Shown: positions 2,050-62,938 of the stretch, piece after piece
How positions within the stretch are numbered: position 1 is the first letter of the stretch
Layout of the letters: the number at the start of each line of letters is the position of its first letter
Assembly (NCBI GenBank): GCA_030765065.1
Contig: CM060977.1
Coordinates: 126,856,295-126,920,294, forward strand
DNA from: Deroplatys truncata
Taxonomy: Eukaryota > Arthropoda > Insecta > Mantodea > Mantidae
Reading direction: 5' to 3'
Length of the DNA stretch: 64,000 nt
Program-made: the position numbers and the translations under genes
Notes under the pieces: generated by a model
What the model was told of the DNA's origin: nothing
What the model saw: only the letters and a program-made list of their open reading frames with translations
Database searches by the model: none

Positions 2050-2780
2050 ACTTTTTCATCTGCAGGGCACGGATATACAGATTTCATTGAAAATACATGT
2101 TTTGAGGTCCCTTAATCCCCTCAAAAAAGCATTTTTAGAAAAAGATTCCGTGTGTGTCTGAACAGCGTAACCAAAAACGAAAAGTCGGATAAATACCAAA
2201 ATTGATACTTAGGTTCAGTATACTTCAAAGATGCGACACGGAAAAGTTTCAAGAAAATACCCTCACTGCAACTATCCTTTACATGGAACATTTTTCAAAT
2301 ATTTGATTTTCTCAAAAACGGCTCTAAGGATTTTGATTAAAATATCATATATGTTTAAGATATTTTTATGGAAAATGAAATGTACATCTTGAATTTTCTG
2401 GGAATGTTCTCTAAGCCGCTTTTGCATAACTGGTAAACCGTAAGATATCATATACATTGGAGTGAACCATTTCCGAGATATTCCTAGTTATTTTCATTGA
2501 TTTTTTTTTTAATTTTCCAATAACTATACTTTTTCAGAAATTGGGATTCGTTATTAGATTTTTTTATCCTGGACATGCAAAGAGAATGGAATGCTCCACA
2601 TAGCAACCAGCTCTTAAAAGATTTGACTATCGCTTAAAGCCTACCACAGTCCTCTTGCACCTACAAGAAAATTAGAAATAAGATAGGTTCTGCAAATGTT
2701 TATAACGATTAACATGAAGTGAATGGAGAATAAGCGTTTGTACAAGAATAGAATAAGTCATGTGAGTGCAACACATCAGA
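2050..2780 (+). repeat. Y1 repeat, near full length
   Basis: Runs from a decayed hairpin end (ACTTTTTCATCTGCAGGG) through the core blocks AACAGCGTAACC, GATGCGACACGG, ATTTTGATTAAAATATCATA and TAACTGGTAAACCGTAAG to AAGTCATGTGAGTGCAACAC near 2757-2776. The microsatellite is reduced to GTGTGTGTCTG. It follows the mariner at 1300-2010 with only about 40 bases between. Confidence 0.85.
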
Positions 2781-2969
2781 TTTTTTAAAGTTAAGATACT
2801 TATGTAATTCAATATTGTATAATACGTCATATATATGTATATATATGAAACAAAAGGGTAACAGAAAACGAGATTCTACCCGTTGCTAGGGAGAATCGAT
2901 ACTCCAGGAAAATGTTCACAAGACGCCACATAGTAAACATTAATTAACAAACATTACACAATATCACCG

Positions 2970-4067
2970 TAGAAAAACAGCAGAATGGGACGCTCTGTGG
3001 AACTCACGGACTGCGAACGTGGTCAGGTGATTGGGTGTCACTTGTATCAGAAGTCTGTACGCGAGATTTCCCTAGGTCCACTGTTTCTGATGTGATAGTG
3101 AAGTGGGCATGTACAGCACAAAACCGTACAGGCCGATCTCGTCTGTTGGCTGACAGAGACCGCCGACATTTGAAGAGAGTCGTAAAGAGTAATAGGCAGA
3201 CATCTATCCAGACCATCACACAGGAATTCCAAACTGCATCAGGATCCACTCCAAATACTATGACAGTTAGGTGTGAGGTGAGAAACCTTGGATTCCATGG
3301 TCGAGCGGCTGCTCATAACCCACACATCACGCAGGAAAATGCCAAACGATGCCTCGCTTGGTGTAAGGAGCGTCAACATTACACGATTGAACAGTAGCAA
3401 AACGTTGTGTGGAGTGAGGAATCACGGTACAGAATGTGGCGATCCGATGGGAGGGTGTGGGTATGGCGAATGCCCGCTGAACGTCATCTGCCAGCGTTTG
3501 TAGTGCCAACAGTGAAATTCGGAGGTGTTGGTGTTATTGTGTGGTCGTGTTTTTCCTGGAGGGGCTTGCACCCTTTGTTGTTTTGCGTGGCACGATCACA
3601 GTGCAGACCTACATTGATATTTTAAGCACCTTCTTGCTTCCCACCGTTGAAGAGCAATTCGGGGATGGCGATTGCATCTTTCAACACGATCGAGCACCTG
3701 TTCATACGCACGGGCTGTGACGGAGTGGTTACACAACAATAACATCCCTGTAATGAACTGGCCTGCTCAGAGTCCTGACTTGAATCCTATATAATACCTT
3801 TGGGATGTTTTGGAACGCCGACTTCGTGCCAGGCTCACCGACCTACATCGATACCTCTCCTCAGTTTCACACTCCGTGAAGAATGGGCTGCCATTCCCCA
3901 AGAAACCTTCCAGCATCTGATTGAATGTATGCCTGCGAGAGTGAACGCTGTCATCAAGGCTAAGGGTGGGCCAACAGCATATTGATTTCCAGCATTATCG
4001 ATGGAGCGCGTCACGAACTTGTACGTCATTTTGAACCAGGTGTCCGGATACTTTTGATCACGTAGTG
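2970..4067 (+). mobile_element. Tc1-like element, family A, copy 1 (5' truncated)
   Basis: Similarity to copy 2 (20,687-21,932) begins just upstream of the transposase start, near AAAACAGCAGAATGGGACGC, and the left terminal repeat is absent. The right terminal repeat is intact (GGTGTCCGGATACTTTTGAT, ending CACGTAGTG at 4067) and is followed by TA at 4068. A SINE begins immediately after this TA. Confidence 0.85.
2985..3985 (+). pseudogene. Tc1 transposase, family A, copy 1
   Basis: DDE transposase of the Tc1 type, normally about 344 residues judging from copy 2. Order seen: start MGRSVELTD at 2985; the HTH region with a short deletion near 3060; second HTH block DRDRRHLKRVVKSNRQTSIQ; catalytic first block VWSEESRYRMWRSDGRVWVW after an in-frame stop near 3397 (codon TAG where copy 2 has W in EQWQNVVW); PTVKFGGVGVIVWSCFS; then FQHDRAPVHT (second catalytic Asp) and the altered SPDLNPI block near 3780, where the catalytic Glu codon has become a stop; end GGPTAY. 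At least four frame breaks. The first catalytic position reads Glu, not Asp, as in copy 2. Confidence 0.85.
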
Positions 4068-4069
4068 TA

Positions 4070-4578
4070 GGTTTACCGAGCGGATGGCTTAGGTGGTTGC
4101 GTTTGTGGCCTGCATTCGGGAGGTCATGGGTTCGCTTCCCGCGGTCGACATTCCTGACCCATGGGTTTTTTCGGAGTTTCTCCGGGTCACTAAGCGAATG
4201 TTGGGAAGGCTCATTTTCTCCCCGGAATTTCTCTTACCTCTTTCCCTCTCATTTCATCTTCCTCTTTCACGTGACAGGTTGGCTCCAGGGCTGTATTCTG
4301 ACTACTGCGACAGATGGATATGCCTGCGTATTGGAACTTATCGGCTCCGTCAATGGCGGTTGCTGCCTTGCGCGCTCTCCAACTGAGTGGTCAAGCTTGT
4401 ATCTTTTAGAGGCCTGTGCGCATCGTTATCACCTGCGTCGGCCGGTTCTGCAGCCCATACGTCACCCGCGGTTCCTTCTTCTCATCCGTTCCTCCCGATG
4501 GTATATACTCAAAAGATCCTGTGTGGGTCGAGGTGCTAGGTGTCCTCTCCGTAGCGTAATCCTAATCCTACATAGGTT
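4070..4578 (+). mobile_element. tRNA-headed SINE, family S2, full
   Basis: Head resembles a tRNA: box A-like TGGCTTAGGTGGTTGC at about 4086-4101 and box B-like GGTTCGCTTCC near 4129-4139, so transcription by RNA polymerase III is expected for an active copy. The body reads CGGAGTTTCTCCGGGTCACT and ends in a short tandem tail (AATCCTAATCCTAC). It abuts the TA that closes the Tc1 copy, so it either inserted at the edge of that element or the Tc1 landed beside it. The long open frames through it are not genes. Confidence 0.75.
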
Positions 4579-4734
4579 TGCCGCATCAGATTTAAAAACC
4601 TGTAGGAACTGAAGGAACGAACCCTGAGAAAGAGAGCTCTCCGAGAAATATCTGAACAAATCTTATGCCAATTATTAAATAGCTACCGCTGCATCCAGAG
4701 GACAACTATCATCGCGACTGGGATTCCAGAGCCA

Positions 4735-5490: not shown

Positions 5491-6055
5491 ATATTTTGTT
5501 TCTCAACTTGGCTAAAAGAAGGTGGGTATTTGTCAAAGAAGCGAAAATGAACTATTACGGGTGACACACCTAACTTCCATAGTTTTCGATAATATTCATC
5601 TAAAATATTACTTTTCTAACCACTTTAGTGCAATCTCAATAATACCCAATATATGTAGCTGTTTTTTTCTTTTGGTTTGTTTCATTAACTTATTCTCCAT
5701 TAACTTCTATGGTGATATCGGATGCTTTGACTTATGAAACAACTCATTTACTGTAGGCCTTTAACGATTTTAGCTTAAAAGACACCTATATTTACTTCTA
5801 CGTGCATATTTCCATACTCTGCGGCAGATAGGGGAAGACTTATTTCAGAACCCCCCCCCCCCCCGTCCTAGCCGAGAGTCTACGCTGAGAAGCCGGAGCG
5901 TACACCTCTCGATCACAAAGGCAATCTACTAAATATTTTGTTACATAAAAACTAGTTTGAAGATTTTGTTATGAGCGTTGATTACTTTTTAGAAAATTAA
6001 AATGCTTATTTAAATACAAGACGACATTTATGTTTTCACTGACGTACTAATTTTT
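5491..6055. other. no gene or repeat recognised; poly-C run
   Basis: AT-rich sequence with a run of about 18 C at 5848-5865. A 71-codon open frame at 5522-5737 has no recognisable motif. Confidence 0.5.
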
Positions 6056-6955
6056 ACTTTCTCTACTACGTATAGTAAGTAGGGGAAGTATTGTATTCCA
6101 CCCAAAAATTCGATACCGAGATTTCACCGGAAATACATGTTTTGAGACCCCCTGAATCCAAAAAAAAAAAATTTTGGAAACATGTCCGTGTGTGTGTCTG
6201 TGTGTGTGTCTGTCTGTGAACAGCATAACTCAGACACGAACAGTCAGATAAACACCAAACTTGGTATTTAAGTTCAGTATCTTCCAGAGATGCGACACGA
6301 ACTTTTCAAGAAAATCCCCCCACCCCAGATTACCCTTTACATGGAAGATTTTTCGAAAATTTTAATTTTCTCAAAAATGGCTCTAAAGATTTTGATTAAA
6401 ATATCATATGTTTAAGATATTCTAATGACAAATAAAATGTATATCTTGAATTTTCTGGGAATGTCTCCAAACGTATTCTTCATTGTGAACGACTTTTGCA
6501 TAACTGGTAAACCATAAGAGATAAGACAAAATTTTACTACACTAACATGCAGATCGCGTTAAAATACACGATTTATGTCATATACATTTTGTTGTTGAGT
6601 GAACCCTTTTCGAGATATTGCTTGTTATTCCCTTAAATTTTTCAATACTAATTTTTTCAAATGGGAATTCATTATTTATTTTTTGTCTTGGATATGCAAA
6701 GAGTATTAATCTGTGGCAAAGGGAATGGTGCTGCACCTAGCAACCAGCTATTAAGAGATATGTATGTGCTTAAAGGCTACTGTATTTCTATATTGCCCTT
6801 GTAAATATATATTCCCCTTACATCTACAAGAAAATTAGCAATAAGATAGAGTCTGCAAATGTTTATCTCGATTAACATGAAGTAGACGGAGAATAAGCGT
6901 TTGTAAAAATGGTTTGTACAAGAGTAGAGAAAGTCATATGAGTGTAACACATCAA
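6056..6955 (+). repeat. Y1 repeat, full length reference copy
   Basis: The clearest complete copy. Hairpin end: ACTTTCTCTAC then CTACTACGTATAGTAAGTAG (6063-6082, stem TACTA/TAGTA with loop CGTA). Microsatellite of GT and CTGT units at 6187-6219. Core: AACAGCATAACTCAGACACG, AACTTGGTATTTAAGTTCAG, CAAAAATGGCTCTAAAGATT, TAACTGGTAAACCATAAGAG, TGGCAAAGGGAATGGTGCTG. Other end: AGTAGAGAAAGTCATATGAG then GTGTAACACATCAA. It is flanked by T runs on the same strand at both ends. Confidence 0.92.
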
Positions 6956-8103
6956 ATTTTTAAAACTATATTTGGCCTTTCGGAAAATTCTTGCTGTGTT
7001 TCATGCAGCAAGGCCTTCATTGTGTATGAATTAAACTGGTTTTATGCTTGTGTTTTAAAACTCTGGTTAACGGTGCAGGAATGGGTACTATAAATTAAAA
7101 CCTAGAAAGACAAATTTATACATTTTATAACAGTTTTCAAGGATAAAAATGCTTTAATGGCTCTAAAAGTATCCTATCTTGCAGGCGTGACCTTCCCCTT
7201 TCCTTCTTGGCCTCACTGTTTGTCTACACCAATTTTGTTGCCTGTCCGTAATCTGTGATATGCAACAGCGGAACATTTTAGTATTAGCGGACTCGCTCTT
7301 GTGTCGTGTATGTCTATTTCTATTTCTATTCTTCCGACCATTAAGTTTAATGTGTTGCACAATACATGTAGCACCCATGGTGAACTTTCAGATGACCTAG
7401 TTGATAGTATATTCCAGTCTATGTTTAGACACAGATGCTAAAAGTGCTAAACAATGGAGTAGAGAGATCACGGAATTTCAGGTTCTTGCAACTTTATATC
7501 ACGCTGTTCAATCTATACGCCTTAGTATGTGAAATTTTTCTTTTCTTCAGTAAGCGCGCGTTGATGTGAATACTTTAGGGTCCTGCTGGATTGGGTTTTT
7601 ACATAGTACCTATTCATCATTTCTGAAATAGCAGAAAACTTAAATCTAAATGCCCAGTTAGGCAAAGGACCGAGAAAGGAAGACCAAGTCAATCCTTAAA
7701 AGAATCAACGTTGTCATTTTTTGGCTTTCGCGAACAATTATAAAGAAGGCTCTTCAGACAGAGGAAGGGATTGAGAGAGGGACAGCTAACCACAAAGCAT
7801 CCTGCCACTCTGTGGTACTTGGGGTAACGTAAAGGCAGAGCAAGGTTTTCTACTGGTGAAATGAACAATAAAGTGGGACATGCTGACCACACACAATCGT
7901 CATTCATATATCAATCTATGGACAGAGGAGGGGATGCAAGCGACCATGTGGTAGGCCTTGGTTCACTACAGCTGTTGTTGCAGGAGTTTTACGGATACCT
8001 AGAGTAGGACCTAAGAACATTCAGCTGCTTTCATTGCTTCCGTTATTGTTGTACAAAATAGCATTTTAAAGTTTTTAAATTAAATTTACAGTAACAATAA
8101 ATA
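6956..8103. other. no gene or repeat recognised
   Basis: About 1.1 kb of unique-looking sequence. Two open frames of 71-72 codons on the minus strand (7163-7378 and 7689-7907) show no motif, membrane pattern or splice context that supports them. Confidence 0.5.
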
Positions 8104-10101: not shown

Positions 10102-10715
10102 AAGGGTCTTTAGTATAAAACCTGACCACCCGCAAGGGGATTTGCGTCTTTGTGTCAGCACTCTATCTTCGCTTCTCAAACCTCTGTCCCTATAAACCTG
10201 TACATAAAATATAACAAAATTAACTTTTATCTCATAGCAAATTCTGTATGCGTAGATGCCACTGAAACCCTAAATTGCTGTGCTAACTTCTATAGTGATT
10301 TTCGTCATGAACGTTCATAATTTTTGTTCGGCTAATGTTTCTTATGTTAACACTGTACATCTTCGCAGGTGTTTATTGTTTTGCACTGAATCAGTAGTCT
10401 CAAATTTATTCCAAGATCTGAATTAAAGTTCTGGTAGGAGTCAACTGTGCAGGAAATTTCAGGATGAATTCTTTACGAACGCAACGAGCAAATTTGTATT
10501 TAAAATAACATTTATATACAAATATACGTTGTTCTAAAGAGAACTAGCTTCTCATCTTCGCAAATGAAAGTGGACTACTGACGCTGATGACTACGTGGTA
10601 ACTGAAGGACAGAAAGCCTGTCGAGAGTGCGGGGTGTGGGGACTGGGTAAGCCAGTCGACATAGGCTCTGATGCATAACACCGTGCGAGTGGTCAGGTTT
10701 ATATAGAAGATCCAG
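10102..10715. mobile_element. TA-flanked MITE, family M3, copy 1
   Basis: Inverted ends: GGGTCTTTAGTATAAAACCT at the left and the complement GGATCTTCTATATAAACCTG at the right, flanked by TA at 10,100 and 10,716. Blocks such as GACTACGTGGTAACTG, GGACAGAAAGCCTGTCG and CAAATGAAAGTGGACT are shared in the same order with the copy at 28,326-28,777. This copy is about 160 bases longer, with extra sequence in its middle. No coding sequence. Confidence 0.8.
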
Positions 10716-11164
10716 TACATATGCAGTGTTATCTATCAATAACACACAACACACAGATGGTGTTATTTAAACTGTTGCTCTCTCTAGAATTAAGAGATTT
10801 CTAATGCAATATTTCACAATGCTGCACCAACGAAGGCATTTGAAGAACGCAACGCAGGCCCTTGCGGTAGGTCATGCCTTATTTACTATTAGAATCATCC
10901 CTTAAACTATATACAACCATACCTCTTCAGCTAAATATGAATAAGCAATTAAACCCTTAACATCAACTTGGGGCAAATGTATTAATCTTAATAAAAATCC
11001 GCCTACTTATCTAATAGATAATGAAAACAAATTACATACTGTGCCAATATCCGTTAAATGCTTAAAAACCTGTAATAAACATGTACTCCTAACTTAACTA
11101 AAACTCCCCCTATAAGTTGGAGAGGGAGAGGGAGAGAGAGAGAGAGAAAGCTTATTTGCTTTTC
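10716..11164. other. no gene recognised; GA microsatellite
   Basis: AT-rich spacer; a GA-rich purine run lies at about 11,118-11,147 immediately before the next Y-repeat. Confidence 0.5.
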
Positions 11165-11849
11165 ACTTTTTCTACTACTTAGAGGAAGTATTGCATTTCA
11201 CCAAAAATTTGAAACCGAGATTTCACCGGAAATACATGCTTTGAGGTGCCCTGAATACAGATAAATCATTTTTGAAAACATGTCTGTCTGTGAACAGCAT
11301 AACTCAAAAGCCAAAAGTCGGATAAACAACAAATTTGGTATTTGAGTTTAGTATCTTCCAAGGATGAAACACGAGGATTATCAAGAAAATCACCCACCCC
11401 AGACTACCCTTTACATGGAACACTTTTTTAAAATTTTTATTTTCTCAAAAATAGTTCTAACGATTTTGATTAAAACATCATATGTTTAAGATATTTTACT
11501 ACACAAAAAACGTAGATCTCTTTAAAACAATCAATTTATGTCATATAATTTTTTTAGAATGAACCATTTCCGAGCTATTCCCCGCTATTTGTTTGAATTT
11601 TCCAGTGTATTTCAAATGGGAATTCGCTACCTTTTTTATGTCCTGAATATGCAAAGAGAATGGAATGCTCCATATAGCAACCAGCTCTTAAAAGATTTGA
11701 CTATCGATTAAAGCCTACCATATTCCCCTTGTACCTACAAGAAAATTAGCAATAAGATAGTTTCTGTAAATGTTTATCTCGATTAACATGAGATGGAGAC
11801 TAAGCGTTTGTAAAAATTTCGAGAGTAGAGAAAGTCATGTGAGATCAGA
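11165..11849 (+). repeat. Y1 repeat, shortened
   Basis: Complete at both ends (ACTTTTTCTACTACTTAGAG and AGTAGAGAAAGTCATGTGAG) but about 200 bases short of the reference through loss of the GT microsatellite and of part of the core around 11,490. Followed after 31 bases by another copy in the same orientation. Confidence 0.85.
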
Positions 11850-11880
11850 TTTTTCTCAATATTAAGCTCTGCTATTTTTT

Positions 11881-12017
11881 ACTTTCTCTACTACGTGTGT
11901 AGTAGGGGAAGTATTGTATTCCAACCAAAAATTCGATACCGAGATTTCACCGGAAATATATGTTTTGAGACCTCCTGAATCCAAAAAAAGCATTTTTGGA
12001 AACATGTCCATGTGTGA

Positions 12018-12062
<45 letters not shown>

Positions 12063-12823
12063 AACAACATAACTCAGAAACGAACAGTCGGATATAAACA
12101 CCAAACTTGGTATTTAGGTTCAGTATCTTCCAGAGATGCGAAACGAAGGTTTTCAAGAAAATCCTCCCACCCCAGATTACACTTTACATGGAACATTTTT
12201 CGAAAGTTTTAATTTTCTCAAAAATGGTTTTAACGATTTTGATTAAAATATCATATGTTTAAGATATTCTAATGACAAATAAAATGTATATCTTGAATTT
12301 TCCGGGAATGTCTCCAAAAGTATTCTTCATTGTGAACGACTTCTGCATAACTGGTAAACCATAAGAGATAAACAACATTTTACTACGCAAAAATGTAGAT
12401 CGCGTTAGAATACACAATTTATGTCAAATACATTTTTGTTGTTGAGTGAACCATTTTCGAGATATTGCTTGTTATTCCCTTAAATTTTTCAATACTTATT
12501 TTCTCAAATGGGAATTCGTTATTCATTTTTTGTCTTGGAACATCAAAGAGTATTAATCTGAGGCAAAGAGAATGGTGCTGCACCTAGCAACCAGCTATTA
12601 AAAGATATGTCTATGCTTAAAGGCTACTGTATTTCTATATTACCCTTGCAGATACAAAACAAGGGGGACATAGTACGCCTTAAGCAATAGCGATCTCTTA
12701 GCATGTCAAAAGATCGTTTCTGCAAATGTTTATCTCGATTAATACGAAATAGATGGAGAATAAGCGTTTGTAAAAATAGTTTGTACAAAAGTAGAGGAAG
12801 TCGTGTGAGAGTAACGCATCAGA
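11881..12823 (+). repeat. Y1 repeat, full length, variant with extra block
   Basis: Microsatellite is a long perfect GT run (about 12,018-12,058). Near 12,655-12,715 it carries an extra block containing ATGTCAAAAGATCGTTTCTG that the 6-kb copy lacks. The minus-strand copy at 26,243 has the same GATCTTTTGACATG block, so the two define a variant subfamily. Confidence 0.9.
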
Positions 12824-13499
12824 TTTTTTCTGTTTATTTTTATCCAGAAATTTGGATTCGAGCTACATGTAAACAAGATAAACACTACTTGTGCTGATCA
12901 TGTTTGTGCTTTGTTGCTGTATTCAGGAATCGTTTATGATGTAGGTAGTTCGAAACAGAAGACCAAGCGACCCTTAGTTACAATACAGCAAATAAATAAA
13001 TACCGTACAATTCCAATAGCTCAGCAACTACCAAATAATACTACTGCATGATATACTATATGCATTACTCTTTGTAGAATCTAATTTAAATTGTGAAGCA
13101 GCCTAATAATTTCCGCTAAAAGTGTATCAGATTTGTATATTAATTAATCTCCTTGCATCCAAACAGGGTTTACAACTCCTGATATGTAGCATTCTTTTAA
13201 TGAAATATTTTGAAGGCCGGTGTCAACAATAACATATGGAATAAAAGATTTTTCAAAATATTTTTTCTTTATAATCTTTCACATTAGTGAAAGCATTTTT
13301 TATGAATTAAAAAAATAATTTAAACGCACAACACCAAATATTTCAGTAATGAGTGATAATAAAATTGCAATGGTTTGGTGTACCTTCAAAGCTTTCCCAG
13401 CAAAATAAAGCTCAGTATGACAAAAAACATAACTGGCTGTTTACAGAAAATTAAAAATAAAGTTGTATTCTGATTCTTCAACGGATTACCTTATTCTTT
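12824..13499. other. no gene or repeat recognised
   Basis: Very AT-rich, no motif of any family in the window. Confidence 0.5.
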
Positions 13500-14870: not shown

Positions 14871-14959
14871 AAATTTTTGGTGCTCTGCATTTCCTTAATG
14901 CAATCATGCATTACTATTTGATTCTGCTCCAATATATCTATAATTGAATAATTAAAAAA

Positions 14960-15808
14960 TCTGATGTGATACATTCACACGACTTTCCTAACCATCTATC
15001 TTTATTAGTGGATATATGAAGTATTCTTATTCAAGCTTATTTTTCTATTTACTACATTTTAATCCAAAAACATTGCAAAAATAGCTACAGTATACATTTG
15101 TTATAGATAAAGAGAACAGCGGGTGTCAAATGTTTAAGAACTGGACTCTATATGCCAGCCTTAAATTTCATACTATCTTCATGCAATCGCGAGTAACAAC
15201 TGGAAATCGATGGGGCTTTAAAAGAATACGCATTGAACAATTCTAACCTTTAATAACGGATATCTCAGAAACGGCTTATGCCACAGAAACATTTATTTTA
15301 GGTAAACTGTGCATTTTAAAGAGATCTATATTTTTTTGTATGGTAGATTTTCGACTATCGCTTACCAGTTATAGAAGCTTATACAAAATTCCTTTCGAAT
15401 AAAGAGAAACTTCGCAGGCTATTCCCAGAAAATTCAAGGTATACATTATATTTGTCGTCTAAATCTCTTTAATATGTCGCATTTTAATAAAAATCATTAG
15501 TCATTTTGAGAAAATCTAAAATTTCCAAAAATGTTCCATGTAAAGAGTAATTAGGGTGGGTGGATTTTATTGAAAATCTTTGTGTCGCATCTTTGTAACT
15601 TACTGATGCCAAGTTTGGTATTTATCCGAACTGAAACTTTTTTTTCGAGTTATGCTATTTACAGACAGACACACGTAACTTTCTTTCCTAAAAATGCCAA
15701 TTTTGATTCAGGGACCTCAAAACATGTATTTCAGTGAAATCTTGGTATCGAACGTTTGGGTGAATACAATACTTTCCCTGCTTACTGTACGTATGTGGTA
15801 GAGAAAGT
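14960..15808 (-). repeat. Y2 repeat, full length
   Basis: From TCTGATGTGATACATTCACA to GTATGTGGTAGAGAAAGT. It shows the Y2 marker TTTATTAGTGGATATATGAA next to the end and lacks a long microsatellite (ACAGACAGACACACG only). A good reference for the Y2 subfamily. Confidence 0.88.
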
Positions 15809-16087
15809 AAAAATAGATGGAGAAAAATAAGCATATTATACTATTACAGAGAAATTAACAGTTCCTAGACACTCACTACATTCTGTTAATATTGCATAAA
15901 CTCTAGTCCACACATTTTTACCTCCGGTTTCCCATTTCAGTTTACACTTATAGCCCTGTGGGGACACGTCATGGCTTAAATTATGCCCTTTCTGCCTGTC
16001 ATAACGAGTATTCAGTCCGGAGTGCAAGATTAGTAAAGCAGGTGTGTGTGTTTGAATATGCAACCACTATGTTCGTCTGTCTATGGT

Positions 16088-16128: not shown

Positions 16129-16129
<1 letters not shown>

Positions 16130-19798: not shown

Positions 19799-20644
19799 TT
19801 ACATGATACATTCACATTACTTTTTCCACCCTGAGAGTATATAAGCTATTCTTAGTAAAGCTTATTTTTATATTTATAATACTCCAAATAAAGCTTTGCA
19901 GAAATGGCTACATTACACACTTCGTTACAGATACACAGACAAAACAGCTATAGTTAAATGTTTAAGAACTGGACGTTATATGCTGGTCTTAAAACTCCAT
20001 ACTGTTTTCATGCAATTGCGAGAAACAACTGAATGTTGAAAGGACTTTAAAGAATCACCAAATGATGAAACAATGGCTTAGAAATGGCTTATACAAAAAA
20101 AAAAAACGTATTCGAAATAAATTCTGTATTGTATAAGAGATTTACACATTTGTGTAGTACGTTTTCGTCTATCGCTTAAGTTTTATCATTTATACAAGAT
20201 TATACATAATTCCTTCAGAATGAAGAGGACTTCAAAGGCAAGTCCCAGAAAATTCAAAATATACATTTTATTTATCATGTAAATATCTTTAATATATGGT
20301 ATTTTATCAAAATCTTTACAGCAATTTTAAGAAAATTAAAATATTCAGAAAATGTTCCATATAAAGGATAGTCATGGTGGGGGGGGGATTTTCCTGGAAA
20401 TCTTCGTGTCGCATCCTTGGAAGATGATGAACTTAAATATAAAGTCTGGTACTTATCAGACTTTTCATTTTTGAGTTATGGTATTCGCAGGTTGATAGAC
20501 AGACACACACCAGACATTTCTCTAAATGTGTTTTCGGAGGGATTCAGGGAGCCAGAAAATATGTATTCTGGTGAAAACTCGGTATAGAATTTTTTAGTGG
20601 AATGCAATACCTTCGCTACCTACTATGTACGTAGTAGAGAAAGT
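19799..20644 (-). repeat. Y2 repeat, full length
   Basis: From GATACATTCACATTACTTTT to ACTATGTACGTAGTAGAGAA. Contains the Y2 markers AACTGGACGTTATATGCTGG and an A run near 20,094. It ends 42 bases before the Tc1 copy at 20,687. Confidence 0.88.
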
Positions 20645-20686
20645 AGTAAATTCATAGGGTTTACCTTGCGCACTGCGACCTTCATA

Positions 20687-21932
20687 CACTACGTGATCTA
20701 AAGTATCCGGACACCTGGCTGAACATGACGTACAAGTTCGTGGCGCCCTCCATCGGTAGTGCTGGAGGTCAATATGGTGTTGGCCCACCCTTAGCCTTGA
20801 TTGCAGCGTTCACTCTTGCAGGCATACTTTCAATCAGGTGCTGGAAGGTTTCTTGGAGAATGGCAGCCCATTCTTCACGGACTGCGGAACTGAGGAGAGG
20901 TATCGATGTAGGTCGGTGCGGCCTGGCACGAAGTCGGGGTTCCAAAACATCCCAAAGGTGTTCTATAGGATTCAAGTCAGGACTCTGTACAGGCCAGTCC
21001 ATTACAGGGATGTTATTGTCGTGTAACCACTCCGCCACAGCCCGTGCAGTATGAACAGGTGCTCGATCGTGTTGAAAGATGCAGTCGCTATCCCCGAATT
21101 GCTCTTCCACAGTGGGAAGCAAGAAGGTGCTTTAAATATCAATGTAGGTCTGCGCTGTGATCGTGCTACGCAAAACAACAAGGGGTGCAAGCCTCCTTCA
21201 GGAAAAACACGACCACGCCATAACACCACCGCCTCCGAATTTCACTGTTGCCACTACACACGCTGGTAGATGACGTTCACCGGGCATTTGCCATACCCAC
21301 ACCCTGTCATCGGATCGCCACATTCTGTACCGTGATTCCTCACTCCACACAACGTTTTGCCACTGTTCAATCGTGTAATGTTGACGCTCCTTACACCAAG
21401 CGAGGCGTCGTTTGGCATTTTCCTGCATGATGTGTGGCTTATGAGCAGCCGCTCGACCGTGGAATCCAAGGTTTCTCACCTCACGCCTAACTGTCATAGT
21501 ATTTGGAGTGGATCCCGATGCAGTTTGGAATTCCTGTGTGATGGTCTGGATAGATGTCTGCCTATTACTCTTTACGACCCTCTTCAAATGTCGACGGTCT
21601 CTGTCAGTCCACAGACGAGGTCGGTCTGTACACTTTTGTGCTGTACATGTTCCTTCAAGTTTCCACTTCACTATCACATCAGAAATAGTGGACCTAGGGA
21701 TGTTTAGGAGTGTGGAAATCTCGCGTACAGACTTCCAACATAAATGACACCCAAACATCTGACCACGTTTGAAGTCCGTGAGTTCCACGGAGCGTCCCAT
21801 TCTGCTGTTTTACGATGTCTAATGACTACTGAGGTCGCGGATAATGAGTACCAGACATAGGTGGCAGCACAGTGCACCTAAGATGAAAAACGTATGTTTG
21901 TGGGGTGTCAGGATACCTTTGATCACATGGTG
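20687..21932 (-). mobile_element. Tc1-like element, family A, copy 2, both ends present
   Basis: Terminal repeats of about 30 bases: left CACTACGTGATCTAAAGTAT and complement of right CACCATGTGATCAAAGGTAT, both continuing into CC.GACACC. TA at 20,685 and 21,933. About 1.25 kb, with one transposase gene on the minus strand in the usual Tc1 layout. Confidence 0.92.
20766..21800 (-). pseudogene. Tc1 transposase, family A, copy 2
   Basis: Cut-and-paste transposase of about 344 residues. An open block from ATG 21,800 to about 21,198 gives 200 residues: MGRSVELTDFKRGQMFGCHL, IPRSTISDVIVKWK (HTH), RRHLKRVVKSNRQ, VWSEESRYRMWRSDDRVWVW and GGGGVMAWSCFS. A frame change near 21,190-21,210 breaks it. The C-terminal block 21,122-20,766 is open again: CIFQHDRAPVHTARAVAEWL with the second catalytic Asp, SPDLNPIEHLWDVLE with the catalytic Glu 34 residues later, and GGPTPY at the end. 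The first catalytic position reads Glu (WSEES) where active Tc1 relatives have Asp. Closest to intact of the transposases here. Confidence 0.9.
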
Positions 21933-30002: not shown

Positions 30003-30036
<34 letters not shown>

Positions 30037-34694: not shown

Positions 34695-35000
34695 AGTTTT
34701 TTTATTTAGAATTAATAATTTTATGAAATGCAACTTGGAAACTACATTTTATCTCATCGCTTCCAAGTTTTTAATTTGAAATTACTATATAAACATAAAG
34801 AAATTGTTGTACAGGCTTTCCTTAATTTTAATTAGTTAAGGAGAAAATATTGGTATATATTTTATTGCATTATTATTCAACTTCTCCAATATGAGTGGAA
34901 GTTAATTTCATTTAAACAAATTAATACGTTCAAACTAGTGCAAAGACATTTTAAATCTATAATTTCTTTGGTTCTCTTGAAAATTTTATTTACTAACTTA

Positions 35001-38852: not shown

Positions 38853-38864
38853 AAAACATCAACA

Positions 38865-43933: not shown

Positions 43934-44745
43934 ACTTTCTCTACTACGTATAGCAAGTAGGGGAAGTACTGCGTTCCACCAAAAAATTCGATACCGAGAT
44001 TTAAACGAAATACATGTTTTGAGGCCTCCTGAATCCAAAAAAAAGTATTTTTGGAAAAATTTCCGTGTGTGTGTCTGTGAACAGCATAACTCAGAATGAA
44101 CATTCCGATAGACAAACTTGGTATTTAGGTTCAGTATCTTCCAGAGATGCGACACGAAGGTTTTCAAGAAAATTCCCCAACCCCAGATTACCCTTTACAT
44201 GAACTTTCTTCGAAAATTTTAATTTTCTCAAAAATGTCTAACGATTTTGGTTAAAATATTATATTCTTAAGATAATTTTATGACAAATAAAATGTATATT
44301 TTGAATTTTCTAGGAATGTCTTCAAAGTATTCATTGTGAACGACTTTTATATAACTGGTAAACGTAAGAGATAGACAAAATTTTACTACACAAAAAAGTA
44401 GATGGCATTAAAATGCACAATTTATGTCATAAAAATTTTTGTTCTTAAGTGAACCGTTTTCGAGATATTGCTTGTTATTCCCTTAAATTTTCCAATATTT
44501 ATACTTTTTCTCAAATGAGAGTTTGTTATTAATTTTTTTGTCTTAAATATGCAAAGAGAATGAAATACTCCACAGCTCTTAAAATATTTGACTATCGCTT
44601 AAAGCCTACCAATTCCCCTTGCATCTACAAGAAAGTTAGGAATAACATTAACATCTCGATTAACATGAAGCATATGGAGAATAAGCGTTTGTAAAAATAG
44701 TTTGTACATGAGTAGAGAAAGACATGTGAGTGTAACACACCGGAC
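43934..44745 (+). repeat. Y1 repeat, full length
   Basis: ACTTTCTCTACTACGTATAG to GTGTAACACACCGGAC. It starts within the T tract of the Y2 copy to its left. Microsatellite is only GTGTGTGTCTG at 44,067-44,078. Confidence 0.9.
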
Positions 44746-44764
44746 TTTTTATTTAGGAATTATT

Positions 44765-47106: not shown

Positions 47107-47782
47107 ATAAGACGGTTGTTACAGTTTCATTTGAGGCAGGTAAAGGCGAGACTAGAAATTGCGTTGGTAATTGGAGGGCCACAGTCGATGTTTGCGGGAC
47201 GGCGTGTACGAAACAAGTGAATATCGCGCTGCTGGGGGTTTAGTTAATTAATGTGGTGTAGCCTATCTGCATGATGGGGAGGGTGAGGGGGAGGCAAAAC
47301 TGCAACGACTCGTCCAGAGGTCAAGCGCACACCTGCACCCGCTTACGTCGCAGTGCGCAGCATTTTGTCGCGTCCGATCTCTTTTGAACAACTCCGGGTG
47401 TGATTGTCTGAGGCTTTATATTTCATCACTACCAGTAATATCGACACACTAACGCATTTCTCTGCCTAGGTTGTTAGGAAAATTATACACTGCAATGGCG
47501 TGCATGGTATAATTTATTACTACAATAAATCCAAGTAAAAAGGGGTCATTTTCTTTCCAGGAATTGTTTATCATTTATTACATTATAATACATCATTATT
47601 TAATTAATGCAATTCTCCACTAAAATGCTGTACGGTGAACCTAACAGGTTTGTCATACAAAACATCCATAGGCTTTAAGTGTCCTATAAATATAGTTTTC
47701 TTTTAGTTTTGAAGCTATTGCTTTCCTAATGTGAATTTTCTAGTGGTATGTAAAATGCTCCACTCGATTTAAGTTTAAAAAA
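47107..47782. other. no gene recognised; GC-rich patch
   Basis: GC-rich from about 47,130 to 47,420 (GGGGAGGGTGAGGGGGAGGC at 47,276-47,295), unlike its surroundings. Possibly an unrecognised GC-rich transposon such as another hAT relative, but no ends were found. Confidence 0.35.
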
Positions 47783-48585
47783 TCTGATGTATTACACTCA
47801 CATGACTTTCTCTACTCTAGTACAAACCATTTTTTACATACGCTTATTATCCATATCCTTCAGGTTAATCGAGATATCGAGATGTTAATCTTATTGCGAA
47901 TTTTCTTGTAGATGCAAGGGGAATTGATAGGCTTTAAGCGATAGTCAATATTTTAAGAGCTGGTTGCTATGTGGAGTAATCCATTCTCTTTGCATTACCA
48001 GGGCAAAAATGAATAACGAATTCTCATTTGAGAAAAAGTGTAAGTATTGGAAAATTTAAGGGAATAACAAGCAATATCTCGAAAATGATTCACTCAATAA
48101 GAAAATGCATATGACATAAATTGTGTATTTTAACGCGATCCACATTTTTTGTGTAGTAAAATTTTGTCTATCTCTTATGGTTTACCAGTTATGCAAAAGT
48201 CGTTCACAATGAAGAATACTTTTGGACAAATGTCCAGAAAATTCAAGATATACATTTTATTTTTCACGAAAGTATCTTAAACATATGATATTTTAATCAA
48301 AATCGTTAGAGCCATTTTTGAGAAAATAAAAATTTCGAAAAATGTTCCATGTAAAGGGTAATCTGGGGTGGGGAGTGTCTTGAAAACCTTGGTATCGCAT
48401 CTCTAGAAGATACTGTACCTAAATACCAAGTTTGGTGGTTATACGACTCTTCGTTTCTGAGTTCATGTTTCCAAAAATACTTTTTTTTTGGATTAAGGAG
48501 GCCCCATGTATTTCCGGTGAAATCTTGATATGGAATTTTTGGGTGGAATGCAATACTTCCCCTCTTACTATACGTAGGAGAAAGT
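47783..48585 (-). repeat. Y1 repeat, full length
   Basis: TCTGATGTATTACACTCACA to TACGTAGGAGAAAGT. The microsatellite and the AACAGCATAACTC block are lost (sequence passes from CTGAGTT to CATGTTTCC), shortening it to about 0.8 kb. Confidence 0.9.
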
Positions 48586-49445
48586 AAAAATAGGTATGGG
48601 ACTTCGTAACGTCGATACCTCGATATATTCGATACTCGGTGATATCGAAGTATATTTAAAACTTTGAGATAAATCTTCGATAGTTTGAAATGGAAAGATT
48701 TGTATTTTTAAAAATTGTTGCATTTAACTTTATGCTAAATAAGCAATGAAAGGACCTGAGATTTCGCATTATTGCCTCACACATGTCCCCAAAAGGCTGC
48801 TGGACTATAGTTCCCGATAGACCTTGACTGCATTTCCTGTGGCTGAAAGAATGCAATACTCCACAGACTCGTATCTAAATGAAGACATGAAAAACAATGG
48901 GGAAGGAGCACAGGTACTCATGTAGCATGGAGCGTTAACTGAGTAAGAAATGAAGCGGATTTACTAAAGCACTAAATCACGTTTCTGCCATAGCCTGGCT
49001 TGGTGTTTCACTCTCAGCCATTACATTTATGACGCCGGTGAGCAAAATCTGTAAATATAGCAGAAACAAACAGAACTTAAAGAGGTTTGATGATACAGCG
49101 CATGGAAATATTTGCTATTTTTATTTGTTTGAGTTTCATGTAAAGTATATACTTGTTTGCATTCTCAAGATTGCAGCATAGAGTAGAATTTCTAGTATCC
49201 TTAAAAATAAAGTTTTTAGCACACAATATAGTTACATAAAAAGGGAAAAATGAATTTACTATTATTGTTGTTATTATTATTATACTGGTATTGTTATCAG
49301 TCTTACATAACAATGGGCGATATATAACTTGTGCTATTATTAAGATAAAACGAATTACTGCTAATTGGAAAATGTCAAACAGGAGCAACTTCGGAATTAG
49401 CATACAATTACAATTTGGTTATATGCGTTTATACACAGAAAACTA

Positions 49446-50967
49446 CACTGGTGTGCAAAACCTAAGGCCGAGATGGGTAAAGTAACATAAAAATGAATTA
49501 CTTGGTGGAAGTAGATGAAGATGCAGGAGCATGTTGCCAGAGGTCTCTCACACTTACAAAGAAAGTTGGACGTCACATGGCGTGAGTGTAGCGAGCCTAT
49601 AGTGCCAAATGGGTCTGGATCCGCAACACGGGGTAGTTGACGAAACAGAACAAGACGGTGTGTGGTAATTAGCGAGCTGTTACGGTGCAGTGTAGTGGTA
49701 TTCTTCATTGCAACATGGCCCGTAGACACCATTTGGATAACTTCACACGGGGACGAATCATCGGGAAACTGGAAGAAGGATGAAGTAAGACGAGTGTTAC
49801 TCAGGAGTTTGGAATTGCTCACCCCATTGTTTCACGTGAATGGGGAACCTTCCAAACCACAGGCACTGCTGAGGTGGTGGTCACCCACGCTCAACTACAG
49901 CAGCAGATGACCGCTAAATATGCAACAGGCAAGAAGGGATCCACGCCAAACAGCGGGTGCAATTGCAACCACATTTAACAGGATAGCTAGGCAGATAATC
50001 TCACGATACACAGTGGCACGGCAACCACACAGAGGTGGTCTCTTTGGCCGACGGCCAGTACGTTGTGTTCCATTGAAATCCGCACATCGGCGGCACCCTT
50101 TGCGATGGTCCCAAGAGCATTAAAATTGGACCAACGAGGAATGGGGTCGCGTGCTCTTCTAGGATGAGAGTAGATTAAGTCTAAGTAGTAATTCTCGATT
50201 TACCTTATCTGCCGAGAGGTGAAGACACGTAATGAACTCAGAAACATCCTTGAACATGATCGTTTTGGTGGTCCGGGTGTTATGGTTTGGGAAGGCATAA
50301 CGTTGCATGGGCGCGCCGACCTCCAAATCTTTGAACACGGTACGCTCACCAGTCAACGTTATTGTGATACTGTACTCCTTCCCCATGTGCGTCTTTTCAG
50401 GGGTGCAGTTGGCCCTGCCTTCATTTTTATGGATGACAATGCGCGTCCGCATCGAACAGCGCAAGTGAAGGATCTCCTGGAACGAGAGGATATTCGGCGA
50501 ATGGACTGGCCTGCCCGTTCCCCCGATTTAAATCCCATCGAACACGCGTGGGATGCTTTGGGGAGACGCATTGCAGCACATCACATGCACCAACGACCAT
50601 CCAACAGTTGTCAACAGCGCTGGTGGAGGAATGGAACGACCTAGCACAAGGACTGCTTACCAACCTTGTGGCCAGTATGGGAGCACGATGCACAGCATGC
50701 ATTACTGTCTGTGGTGATCATACACCCTTTTAAGCACCATGTATCTGTTTCTATAAATCTAGAGAGCCATCATATGTCGTATTGACTTTAGTGTAGCTTA
50801 TGGTCTATGAATAAAAGTGGCATTTCTGTTCGTCTCATTGCATATTTCGTTTAGTTGCCTACTGTAGCATACCGTAGCAGTACGATTCAAGTTTCATCGA
50901 GCTATGTTGCTTGGCGGTGTCACAGCATGGGAAGAGTACTTTCGTCCTTAGGTTTTGCACACCAGGG
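49446..50967 (+). mobile_element. Tc1-like element, family B, both ends present
   Basis: Inverted ends CACTGGTGTGCAAAACCTAA (left) and complement CCCTGGTGTGCAAAACCTAA (right), continuing GG.CGA; TA at 49,444 and 50,968. About 1.52 kb. Unrelated at sequence level to family A beyond the Tc1 class. The inside holds one decayed transposase. Confidence 0.9.
49715..50733 (+). pseudogene. Tc1 transposase, family B
   Basis: DDE transposase of the Tc1 class, broken. Start MARRHHLDNFTRGRIIGKLE at 49,715, a stop soon after (LEEG*), then TQEFGIAHPIVSREW (HTH). After a frame change: RQTAGAIATTFNRIA, ISRYTVARQPHRGGLFGRRP, RCVPLKSAHRRHPLRWSQEH. The first catalytic block is F*DESRFSL near 50,155-50,180. The C-terminal catalytic part is well kept from about 50,219: RNILEHDRFGGPGVMVWEGI, GPAFIFMDDNARPHRTAQVK (second Asp), MDWPARSPDLNPIEHAWDAL (Glu 34 residues on). 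A further shift near 50,600 precedes the end CITVCGDHTPF. Four or more breaks. Confidence 0.88.
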
Positions 50968-56519: not shown

Positions 56520-56800
56520 GTTTTTATTTATGGACGCTCTTTAACTGTTGTGGTCCTTAGCGTCTCATTCTATATTGGGCGTGAAAGACCGGAAATTTTG
56601 CTCAGAGGCATTTTTATCAGGCTTCAGGTTCTTTTTCCGTGCCGTAAATCTACGACACGGGACCACCGGCTTTACTTTGCTTCCGAAGGAAGCCATGCTA
56701 AGGATTTTTACGCCCGAAAAAATCCATCGCTCTCCTACAGGTTTGAACCCGCGTCCTCGGGAAGTAGAGGCTACCAGTACACCACGGAGGATGACAGTTT
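56520..56800 (-). mobile_element. tRNA-headed SINE, family S3, nearly complete
   Basis: Minus-strand head TCCTCCGTGGTGTACTGGTA (box A region) and GCGGGTTCAAACCTGTAGGA (box B region), body GAAGCAAAGTAAAGCCGGTG and AATTTCCGGTCTTTCACGCC. A Y3 repeat starts about 35 bases to its right. Confidence 0.85.
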
Positions 56801-57805: not shown

Positions 57806-57885
57806 GGTAATCAATTTTCACCAAAACAAAAGAAAGATTGTTTCGAAATAAATATTGCTTAAAGAGAATGTAGCACTTTTAAGAT

Positions 57886-58100
57886 TACTGTATGTATGTA
57901 TGTATGTATGTATGTATGTATGTATGTATGTATGTATGTATGTATGTATGTATGTATGTATGTATGTATGTATGTATGTATGTATGCATGCATGCATGCA
58001 TGCATGTATGTATGTATGTATGTATGTATGTATGTATGTATGTATGTATGTATGTATGTATGTATGTATGTATGTATGTATGTATGTATGTATGTATGTA
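57886..58100. repeat. long TATG tetranucleotide microsatellite
   Basis: About 53 uninterrupted units of TATG (ATGT register) with a central switch to CATG units at about 57,984-58,006. The open frames on both strands (MYVC and HTYI repeats) are trivial products of the repeat. Confidence 0.97.
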
Positions 58101-58551
58101 CGGTTTTATTTTTGAAAACCGCTCTTTACATCGTAAAGACACAATGACTCCATCCACAACCGGAACCGGAAGTATTTTATAAACAGGTGTAATTGGAACA
58201 AGCCGTGCAACGGACAGCACCATGCTGATCTAAAATAGGGAAGTGTATTTATTGGCCAGGGTTTTAGCTCAATCTCTCATAGTCACGCTGCCATATAGAA
58301 GATACGCGTCTGAGCTAAATTGGATCGCGAACCCCGATCTAACAGAGTATCTTTTTATTAAATGAAACAAGGTTCTGCCAGATCTATTTTCAGATAAGTC
58401 CTTGTGATATGTATTTAAGATCCTGCACCTCAGGGCCCGTCAGAAGGCCCCAAATTTCAACTTTCTTAATTAAACAACCCGGAAAATGCCTTTTATAGAA
58501 CCTGATGTAGAGATTTGTCCCTCCACAGCTTTCCAAATACAAATTAGTTTT
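58101..58551. other. no gene or repeat recognised
   Basis: Nothing supported. Confidence 0.4.
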
Positions 58552-58830
58552 ATTTTGAACGCTCTTTAACTGCTGTCGTTCTTAGCATCCCATTCTATAT
58601 TGGGCATGAAGGACAGGTAATTTTGCTCAGAGGCCTCTTTATCAGGCTTGAGCTTCTTTTACGTGCCGTACAGTTACGACACGGGATAACCAGATTTACT
58701 TATCTTCCAAAGGAAGACATGCTAAGAATTTTTATGCCGAAAAAAATCCATTGCTCTCCGCAGAGTTTGAACCCGCGACCTTGGGAACCAGAGGCTGGCA
58801 TGGTAACCACTACTCCACGGAGGACCACCC
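58552..58830 (-). mobile_element. tRNA-headed SINE, family S3, complete
   Basis: Minus-strand head TCCTCCGTGGAGTAGTGGTT (box A region) and GTCGCGGGTTCAAACTCTGC (box B region); body CTTCCTTTGGAAGATAAGTA and TACCTGTCCTTCATGCCCAA; ends TAAAGAGCGTTCAAAATAAA. Together with the 31.1 and 56.5 kb copies it defines the complete S3 structure. Confidence 0.87.
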
Positions 58831-60534: not shown

Positions 60535-60540
60535 ACCCAT

Positions 60541-60838: not shown

Positions 60839-60840
60839 AA

Positions 60841-60921
60841 TAAGCTTTAGTAAGAATAGTTTGCATATCCACTAATAAAGATAAAGTAGAGAAAGGCATG
60901 TGAATGTATCACATTATATGT
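60841..60921 (+). repeat. Y2 CATCAGA-end fragment
   Basis: AAGCTTTAGTAAGAATAGTT, CACTAATAAAGATAAAGTAG, GCATGTGAATGTATCACATT. It may be the remaining end of a Y2 copy that received the inverted Y1 pair. Confidence 0.8.
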
Positions 60922-61349
60922 TTTAATTATTCAATTATAGATTTATTAGTATTCCTTCTTGGAGCAGAATCCAATAACAATGCATTCTATCACCTGTGCT
61001 TCGATTCGATTAGCTCCTGCCTCACAAGAGAGTTTCTCATTACACCACGAATTGTTCAGTGGTATTTTATTTAATTCAGATCTGCAGTTCTGCTTGGCAT
61101 GAAAGCTAATAAAATTAGTGCATGCTTTCAGAATGATGAAACAGATAAGCCACTTCAATGATTATACTAAAAGTGCAAAAAATTGCATCGTATTCACACT
61201 GTAATCACTTCAGTGATTATACAAAGTACAAAAAAAATGCGTCGCACTTGCATTTTAATCACTTCAGTTATTATGCTAAAATACTAAAAATGGCATTGTT
61301 CTCACAATGTAGTTATCTTACTGAGTCCCCCACATGAATATAATTTTTT
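60922..61349. other. no gene recognised; short local direct repeats
   Basis: Three imperfect copies of a ~65-base unit (ATCACTTCAGTGATTATAC with AAAAATGCATCG) lie at about 61,140-61,310. No gene. Confidence 0.45.
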
Positions 61350-62087
61350 ACTTTCTCTACTACATATAACAAGTAGGGAAAGTATTGCATTCCACCAAAC
61401 AAAAATTCGATGTCGAGATTTCATAAGAAATATATGCTTTGAGGTCCCTTAACCACAAAAAAGTATTTTTAGTAAAAGGCCCATATGTGCGTCTATGTGT
61501 GTGTGTGAACAGCATAACTCAAAAACGAAAAGCCGGTTAAATACAAACTTGATATTTAAGTTCAATATCTTCCGAAGATGCGACACGAAGATTTTCAAGA
61601 AAATCCTCAACTATCCTTTACATGGAAAAATTTATTTTCTAAAAAATCGCTCAACGATTTTACTCTTCATTTAGAAGGAATTTTATATAATCTTACGGGC
61701 ATATAACCGGTAAACGTTAAAGCGATAGATGAAAATATACTACAAAAAAATGTAGATCTCTTTATAACGCAAAACCTATTACAAATAACCTTTCTAGAAT
61801 CGGGCATTTCTCAGATATCTGTTATTAATTGTTTGAATTGTTCAATACCTAATCATTCTTTTAAAGTCCTGTCGATTTTCGGTTGTTTCTCGGGATATGG
61901 AAAGAGTATGGAACTTTAAGGGCAGAGTATAGCGTCCTGTATTAAAGCATTTCACTGTAACTTTCCCTTTGTATCCAAAACGAAATGTGTAATGTAGCTA
62001 TTTCTGGAAAGATTTATCTCGTTTAAAATGAAGTACAAGTATATCTCTAATAAGCGATAGAGAAGGACATGTGAAAGTATCACATCA
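61350..62087 (+). repeat. Y2 repeat, near full length
   Basis: ACTTTCTCTACTACATATAA to AGAAGGACATGTGAAAGTAT and CACATCA. Followed after seven T by a Y1 copy in the same orientation. Confidence 0.88.
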
Positions 62088-62094
62088 TTTTTTT

Positions 62095-62938
62095 ACTTTC
62101 TCTACTACGTATAGTAAGTAGGGGAACTATTGTATTCCACCCAAAAATTCGATACCGAGATTTAACCGGAAATACATGTTTTGAGACCCCCTGAATCCAA
62201 AAAAGCATTTTTGGAAACATGTCCGTGTGTGTGTCTGTCTGTGTGTGTGCGTCTGTGAACAGCATAACTCAGAAACGAACAGTCGGATAAACACCAAGTT
62301 TGGTATTTAGGATAAGTATCTTCCAGAGATGCAACACGAAGGTTTTCAATAAGATCCCCCCACCCCAGATTACCCTTTACATGGAACATTTTTCGAAAAT
62401 TTTAATTTTCACAAAAATGGCTGTAACGATTTTGATTAAAATATCATATGTTTAAGATATTTTCATGACAAATGAAATGTACATCTCGAATTTTCTTGGA
62501 ATGTCTCCAAAAGTATTCTTCATTGTGAACGACTTTTGCATAACTGGTAAACTATAAGAGATTGACACAATTTTACTACACAAAAAATGTAGATCGCGTT
62601 AAAATACACAATTTATGTCATATACATTTTTTTTGTTGAGTGAACCATTTTCGAGATACTGCTTCTTATTCCCTTAAATTGTCCAATACTTTTTCTCAAA
62701 TGGGAATTCGTTAGTCATTTTTTATGTCCTGGACTTAAAAAGAGAATATAGTGCGCCATAAAGGAACCAGTTCTTAAACGATTTGACTATCGCTTAAAGC
62801 CTACCATATTTCCCTTGCATCTACAAGAAAATTAGCAATAAGATTAACACCTCGATTAACATGAAGCATATTAAGAATAAGCGTTTGTAAAAATAGTTTG
62901 TACAAGAGTAGAGAAAGTCATGTGAGGTAACACAACTA
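62095..62938 (+). repeat. Y1 repeat, full length
   Basis: ACTTTCTCTACTACGTATAG, microsatellite at 62,224-62,257, and AGTAGAGAAAGTCATGTGAG. The junction with the preceding Y2 copy is a bare T run. Confidence 0.92.

Follow-up and report, generated by a model that had tools for sequence, protein, structure and literature searches.

The Y-repeat and its anatomy

The window analysed here is a stretch of 64,000 bases of the Deroplatys truncata genome (C3:126856295-126920294), in which a first-pass annotation had noticed an interspersed family, the Y-repeat (hereafter Y), with about 33 copies in both orientations that would fill about a third of the sequence. Comparison of the window with itself showed that Y is ~0.85–0.95 kb long and occurs in both orientations. 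A profile of 873 positions was built from ten aligned window copies, and nhmmer searches with it returned 44 matches on both strands, covering 20,923 of the 64,000 bases (32.7%), which agrees with the proposed third. Blastn searches with seven Y copies as queries gave 35 merged intervals (19,804 bases), close to the copy number proposed. No match was obtained with the profile in reversed and dinucleotide-shuffled versions of the window and of the genome sample described below. The span given previously, 2050-62938, was roughly right although slightly too short, and the common ends and ordered core that had been described are clear in the ten-copy alignment. The orientation, however, had been reversed, as CATCAGA forms the 3' end by the convention used for Helentron-associated interspersed elements (HINEs). 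Y had also been said to lack a transposase; consistent with this, the longest frame within Y in the frame list (164 amino acids) has no Pfam match, other Y frames not having been searched, and by that frame test Y has no coding capacity, as is the case for HINEs and DINE-1-like elements. ARAGORN found no tRNAs in the window. The extent of the family and the parts of one full-length copy are as follows.

170-62944, strand unspecified: extent of all 44 Y matches (nhmmer)
6052-6961, plus strand: full-length Y, long-tail form, used to place the parts (nhmmer model 1-872, 925 bits)
6056-6067, plus strand: 5' subterminal inverted repeat ACTTTCTCTACT, with TTTTT before it
6064-6077, plus strand: palindrome TACTACGTATAGTA nested in the 5' subterminal inverted repeat (the 'IR' of DINE-1), seen in sequence, with folding no stronger than in shuffles
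6183-6218, plus strand: microsatellite TGTCTGTGTGTG within Y
6923-6934, plus strand: 3' subterminal inverted repeat AGTAGAGAAAGT, counted back from the 3' end
6936-6952, plus strand: 3' palindrome ATGTG..CACAT (ATATG in this copy), followed by CATCAGA (here CATCAAA) and TTTTT

From 5' to 3', the alignment reads as a T-run, ACTTTCTCTACTACGTATAGTAAGTAGGGG, a (TG/TGTC)n microsatellite that lies ~120 bases from the 5' end and differs in length among copies, a conserved core, a variable stretch, AGTAGAGAAAGT, CATGTGAGTGTAACACATCAGA and a second T-run. The subterminal inverted repeats (subTIRs) are 12 bp long in the consensus, ACTTTCTCTACT at the 5' side and AGTAGAGAAAGT at the 3' side being exact reverse complements, in keeping with the subTIRs of at least 11 bp that mark HINEs and DINE-1-like elements. 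They are asymmetric, terminal at the 5' end and ~22 nt inside at the 3' end, where GTAGAGAAAGT is exact in 16 of 41 Y ends. Two further marks of this group were found, namely the palindrome TACTACGTATAGTA, which overlaps the 5' subTIR, and the 3' palindrome ATGTG-7-CACAT near the end, which is present both in the consensus and in a coding element described below. The ends of canonical Helitrons (Helitron1), that is, 5' TC, 3' CTRR and insertion at A/T, were not found in Y, the ends of which are T-run/ACTTTC and CATCAGA/T-run.

Insertion sites

Each of the five positions before the 5' ends holds T in 76–94% of cases (n=51) and each of the five positions after the 3' ends in 85–96% (n=46), against a background of 31%. 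When T-runs were set aside, none of the 22 copies with both flanks carried direct repeats of at least 4 bp (0.04 by random pairing); with T-runs kept, 10 of 22 did, compared with 12.2 by random pairing. We also joined the flanks of 26 full copies and compared them with the window and the sample. Alignments across the joined junction were obtained for six, four of which represent neighbouring Y pieces or an adjacent duplication, and the other two can be read as empty sites inside T-runs. In the clearer case, L011:7033-7892, a Y is inserted into the T-run of a second Y that has the opposite orientation, and uninterrupted relatives of the latter align across the site without duplication, the 3' border being extrapolated by 10 bases. 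The other, the copy at 37990-38856 of the window compared with L009, points in the same direction and is less clean, with a 4-base difference at the junction. Y thus shows the T-rich insertion without target-site duplication that is typical of HINEs and DINE-1-like elements.

These sites bear on two other classes of element. Y could be a miniature inverted-repeat transposable element (MITE) belonging to a DNA transposon that moves by cut and paste and has terminal inverted repeats, given the inverted repeat at both Y ends and the pieces of Tc1-like transposase in the window; moreover, DINE-1 elements were once classed as MITEs, according to passages of PMC4067079. The asymmetry of the inverted repeat, the absence of duplications in all 22 copies outside T-runs, the two T-run insertions without duplication and the Rep and PIF1 domains of the matching coding element all speak against this, and we consider it highly improbable. 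A retroelement origin, either SINE-like (short interspersed nuclear element) or as solo long terminal repeats, would account for the A-rich/T-rich ends and the very high copy number, and passages of PMC4067079 note that early papers put DINE-1 among the non-LTR retrotransposons. Again, there is no target duplication, and precise 5' and 3' ends are similarly frequent (48 and 43, respectively, among the 115 Y matches of window and sample); subTIRs are present, the window has no Rfam match at gathering scores, and a Rep-helicase element shares the 3' end. There is thus very little chance that Y is a retroelement. HINEs have been placed among MITEs or retrotransposons by mistake, their ends being unlike those of canonical Helitrons.

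Abundance in the genome

The abundance of Y was assessed in the whole assembly (4,289,915,091 bases in 818 contigs, of which contig 16 measures 707 Mb) and in a sample of 20 stretches of 10 kb taken at round coordinates on 13 contigs (200 kb). Y is not confined to this locus: the nhmmer profile gave 71 matches in 15 of the 20 stretches, covering 30,162 bases, or 15.1% of the sample (bootstrap 8.6–22.2%), which corresponds to roughly 0.65 Gb, provided that the sample is fair. A count independent of the sample, made over all 4.29 Gb, gave 125,280 exact copies of the 33-base 5' terminus (62,568 + 62,712) and 0 of the reversed pattern. At that density the sample should contain 5.8 exact termini and the window 1.9; the numbers seen were 4 and 3, respectively, so the sample is not enriched in Y. 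Scaling from the 29 recognisable 5' ends in the 200 kb gives a rough genome-wide figure of ~620,000. Together, the sample and the exact termini bear out the suggestion that Y could be a major component of the genome. In the first 16.4 Mb of contig 1, exact 5' termini are about five times rarer than the genome mean. The 22-base 5' end of Y was found neither in viral contigs nor in bacterial and archaeal genomes.

A Rep-PIF1 element related to Y

We searched the genome for the Rep domain (PF14214) and obtained at least 152 matches, with the best 150 of 291 candidates scored, which fall into at least two kinds. The Helitron form of the motif, QKRGLPHAH, often accompanied by stops, was present at 10 of 20 loci (L029-L048), the other ten giving no match in the motif search; Y matches among these loci were found only in L038 and L045. 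L038 initially resembled a Y 5' end joined to a Rep gene, which made it a candidate partner for Y; this was rejected, as the Rep faces the opposite way and is cut off before the motif near Y position 337, and the junction was taken to be due to chance. In the second kind the open frames are long, and four measure exactly 2,324 amino acids, with PIF1 (PF05970) in the same frame.

C9:66068003-66070636, and three further places: open frame of 2,324 amino acids that contains both Rep (PF14214) and PIF1 (PF05970)

In the one C9 copy that was read, in pieces, the Rep motif is VEFQMRGSPHEH, in phase; it contains RGSPHEH, in which S precedes PH, and a serine at this position is the Helentron form in the relevant passages of PMC4067079. 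The frame may extend up to ~750 codons beyond the point where the PIF1 match begins, as far as a TAA in phase in L049, and would therefore have room for an endonuclease.

The 3' border of this element was located on C9 between 66,072,963 and 66,073,400, that is, between probes L051 and L052: probes L049-L051 recur in many copies at 86–100% identity and L052 matches only itself. The gap between L051 and L052 contains GTGTAGAGAAAGTTATGTGAATGTAACACATCAGATTTTTTT, which is the Y 3' end, agreeing with Y copies at up to 38 of 40 bases and matching the Y profile at positions 833-872 (E 2.6e-8). On this side Y and the coding element also have GTAGAGAAAGT in common, in agreement with the identity of at least 11 bp in subTIRs by which passages of PMC4067079 place Helentrons in the same family. 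The exact 3' 39-mer of the element occurs 48 times in the genome, and 40 of these occurrences have a Rep match on their 5' side (39 at a distance of 4.7–5.0 kb and one at 6.2 kb), one lies near PIF1 and seven are unlinked. Linkage was counted against Rep rows picked by eye from the 152, mostly those matching profile 8-190, with 55 rows used for the 39-mer and 53 for the 3' probe and for L058 and L059 below. The 3' probe was found at 4.6–4.9 kb in 34 of 53 rows; its absence from the other 19 says little, since only the best 40 candidates were scored.

Y sequence also lies on the 5' side of the element, in Y orientation. L058 corresponds to Y model 346-404 (E 6.7e-14) and is found 3.5–3.9 kb upstream of Rep in 9 of the 16 places listed; the other seven, at 98–100% identity and without Rep among the rows used, may be young Y copies. 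L059 corresponds to Y model 603-750 (E 2.4e-23) and lies 3.7–5.9 kb upstream of Rep in 35 of the 40 places scored. It had been considered as the 5' end of the element and was rejected when it proved to be internal. The distance from L059 to Rep varies by steps of ~62–63 bases (4024, 4150, 4212, 4275, 4331 and so on) and several of the open frames differ in length by multiples of 21 codons, perhaps owing to a variable-copy minisatellite in the leader or N-terminal part.

The element is a young Rep-PIF1 element with long open frames and near-identical copies, much rarer than Y, and would measure ~10 kb with the Y 3' end at one side and Y sequence at the 5' side. The same genome therefore holds a Helentron-type element tied to Y by a common 3' terminus and by Y sequence in its 5' region, its own 5' terminus lying outside the sequence read.

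Y as a non-autonomous Helentron

The anatomy of Y, its T-run target and the linked Rep-helicase agree best with a HINE, and we are highly confident in classing Y as a non-autonomous Helentron of the kind known as HINEs or DINE-1-like elements. It would be a derivative of a Helentron, as the 3' terminus of the Rep-PIF1 element matches Y and its 5' region contains Y sequence. The family had been called uncharacterised; in kind it is not, given that it has the defining DINE-1/HINE parts and has sequence in common with an element of Helentron type that this genome also contains. Under this interpretation, Y would carry no gene and would keep the ends needed for recognition by a Helentron Rep-helicase (subTIRs, 3' palindrome and T-run borders); a Helentron protein made elsewhere in the genome would nick one strand at a Y end, a single-stranded copy would be peeled off through rolling-circle replication, and this copy would enter a run of Ts without duplication of the target. 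Head-to-tail arrays with inner copies that lack 3' ends would result if rounds were repeated or ended incompletely. Rolling-circle copying is presumed for Y from its family membership, and we infer that Y was moved by the protein of this Rep-PIF1 partner or by that of its ancestors.

Several observations weigh against this interpretation or narrow it. The T-runs are not universal: the border position lacks a T in 4 of the 51 5' ends and in 7 of the 46 3' ends. As folded single strands the Y palindromes were not stronger than shuffles, and the case for them comes from their position and conservation. Between the 3' subTIR and the end there are 22 nt plus about 6 Ts, which is inside the range of about 20–40 bp given for Fusarium Helitron2 in passages of PMC5148889 and less than the 38–60 bp given for mite HINEs in passages of PMC4067079. 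The last 60 bp of the partner reach at best 67% identity with any of 41 Y ends, compared with the 80% that passages of PMC4067079 ask of one Helentron subfamily, and because nearly all occurrences of its exact 3' terminus accompany a Rep or PIF1 match (41 of 48), the present Helentron is no more than a candidate for copying Y today. The Y pieces in the 5' region of the partner run 603-750 and then 346-404, unlike the order in Y itself, so part of this region may be captured or tandem Y and not an ancestral leader. Finally, the class of the partner is based on the Rep motif, PIF1 and the 3' end, its 5' terminus and endonuclease lying outside the sequence read. Y probably descends from an earlier Helentron of this lineage, of which the present partner would be a cousin.

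The last of these points leaves some room for a close relative of the HINEs: Y could be a Helitron2-type non-autonomous element whose partner has no endonuclease, and so not strictly a HINE. Helentrons group with Helitron2 and have similar termini in the account given in passages of PMC5148889, and the endonuclease falls beyond the partner sequence read. On the other side, the Rep motif has the Helentron serine (in one copy, by the form given in passages of PMC4067079) and the frame, at up to ~750 codons past the PIF1 start, has space for an endonuclease. We regard this alternative as rather unlikely and retain the HINE assignment.

HINEs and Helentrons have been described before; the Y family, as far as tested, appears new and of unusual scale. 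We found no report of it among the matches listed for Helentron with Orthoptera or for DINE-1/HINE with insects, a literature in which most subscription journals are out of scope, nor were three strings from the Y 5' end found there.

Head-to-tail arrays

The window contains one array in which a Y is interrupted by three further copies in the same orientation.

31912-34700, plus strand: head-to-tail Y array, a host Y interrupted by three Y copies
31912-32256 and 34378-34700, plus strand: host Y, model 175-520 and 536-872, respectively
32255-32887 and 32886-33469, plus strand: inner copies without a 3' end, model 2-629 and 2-583, respectively
33472-34381, plus strand: full inner copy

Passages of PMC7492417 report that Helitrons in tandem often have 3'-truncated inner copies, which is what is seen at 32255-34381. 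The spacing of 5' termini was examined on contig 1, using the listed exact termini, which cover its first 16.4 Mb. Among 99 consecutive pairs, 14 were <1 kb apart on the same strand and none on opposite strands, with 0.3–1.4 expected; some of the 14 are mirrored within inverted duplications and not all are independent. Ten spacings of 443–671 bases are below the full length of Y and fit inner copies without 3' ends. Mirrored, equally spaced pairs occur at 8,177,198/675 and 8,187,200/678 and at 13,833,714/834,157 and 13,842,629/843,072, which suggests inverted duplications.

Arrays of this kind could possibly arise by simple nesting followed by loss. They also raise the question of whether recombination, and not mobility, has spread Y, which would then be mainly a dispersed satellite; the 14 same-strand pairs and a tandem array containing a Y piece (L013:4456-7449) would lend support to this. 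That array has a period of 497 bases, with 87% of bases matching at this shift, and its units hold Y model 277-599; it appears to be a satellite seeded by Y. Across window and sample, however, the 115 Y matches include only 7 joins of a Y piece to an intact 5' end in the same orientation. Both orientations occur, the flanks differ from copy to copy while the ends are precise, and there are empty sites, making a mainly satellite nature very improbable.

As for how a HINE family could reach this scale, we put forward tentatively, as a possibility that we hold to be less than even, that one family makes up about a seventh of the 4.3-Gb genome with several hundred thousand 5' ends, that the only coding element linked to it by sequence has some tens of copies (about 50 listed), and that much of the gain came through head-to-tail concatemers cut short at internal T-runs. 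If true, Y would preserve naturally occurring traces of rolling-circle read-through and of false termination, and would be a source from which satellites arise. Since tandem copies without 3' ends occur, Y offers a large natural sample for the study of Helentron termination.

Subfamilies and age

Three subfamilies had been proposed, differing in the bases next to CATCAGA. Among 29 near-full copies of window and sample we found groups of 15 and 9 plus five singletons. The 15-copy group, with a mean divergence of 6.9% (4.1–18.3%) from its own consensus, includes longer and shorter tails near CATCAGA; the older group of nine has a mean of 12.9%. The proposal thus held in that there are several groups and that tails vary near CATCAGA, whereas the third form is the older group and differs throughout. 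The differing divergence of the two groups and the singletons points to several waves of Y. Other copies in the window are listed below.

11877-12829, plus strand: full-length Y, 22 bases 3' of the Y piece at 11493-11854
14954-15812, minus strand: full-length Y, older group
19804-20645, minus strand: near-full Y, older group
26238-27138, minus strand: full-length Y, first reference copy
29318-30151, minus strand: full-length Y, short-tail form
37991-38856, minus strand: full-length Y, beside and within older Y sequence (empty-site comparison with L009)
43931-44749, plus strand: full-length Y
47777-48588, minus strand: full-length Y
62091-62944, plus strand: full-length Y, abutting the 3' end of the Y piece at 61661-62087

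Comparison with known systems

Judged by architecture and not by sequence comparison, Y resembles DINE-1/INE-1 of Drosophila and the HINEs of mites and mosquitoes. Like these, as portrayed in passages of PMC4067079, it has subTIRs of at least 11 bp, a nested 5' palindrome, a microsatellite and a 3' palindrome, targets T-runs without duplication, has no coding capacity and exceeds its Helentron in copy number. It is also similar to Cg_HINE of the Pacific oyster, for which passages of PMC7492417 give a left end of 5' subTIR, IR and GTCY-type microsatellite, a right end of 3' subTIR and palindrome, and an oligo-T target; unlike Cg_HINE, the aligned Y copies have no central satellite array, their middle being an ordered core of several hundred bases. 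The partner in turn is like autonomous Helentrons in having Rep and PIF1 in one long frame and the motif RGSPHEH, and has a Y-type 3' end.

In terms of scale, morabine grasshoppers provide the closest comparison among the sources cited here: Helitrons, all families summed, make up 17–22% of their ~4 Gb assemblies according to passages of PMC7754599, so that in both cases rolling-circle elements account for a comparable share of a large genome. In contrast to that summed figure, Y alone accounts for ~15% of the sample and has non-canonical ends. One family at ~15% of a 4.3-Gb genome, together with a Helentron-type element bearing the same 3' end, ties genome growth to rolling-circle elements, and the interest of Y lies in this scale, its linked partner and its head-to-tail arrays.

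Other repeats in the window

The window also contains repeats other than Y.

10152-10718: another interspersed repeat, found in 39 other places of the genome at 77–83% identity (best 40 of 1,418 candidates)
20769-21809, 2948-3397 and 50192-50644: pieces of Tc1-like transposase in separate frames (HTH_Tnp_Tc3_2, DDE_3)
57889-58100: near-perfect (TGTA)53 microsatellite (99% matches)
31139-31414, 56522-56791 and 58541-58825: sequence repeated within the window, judged by eye from the frames to be one further small family

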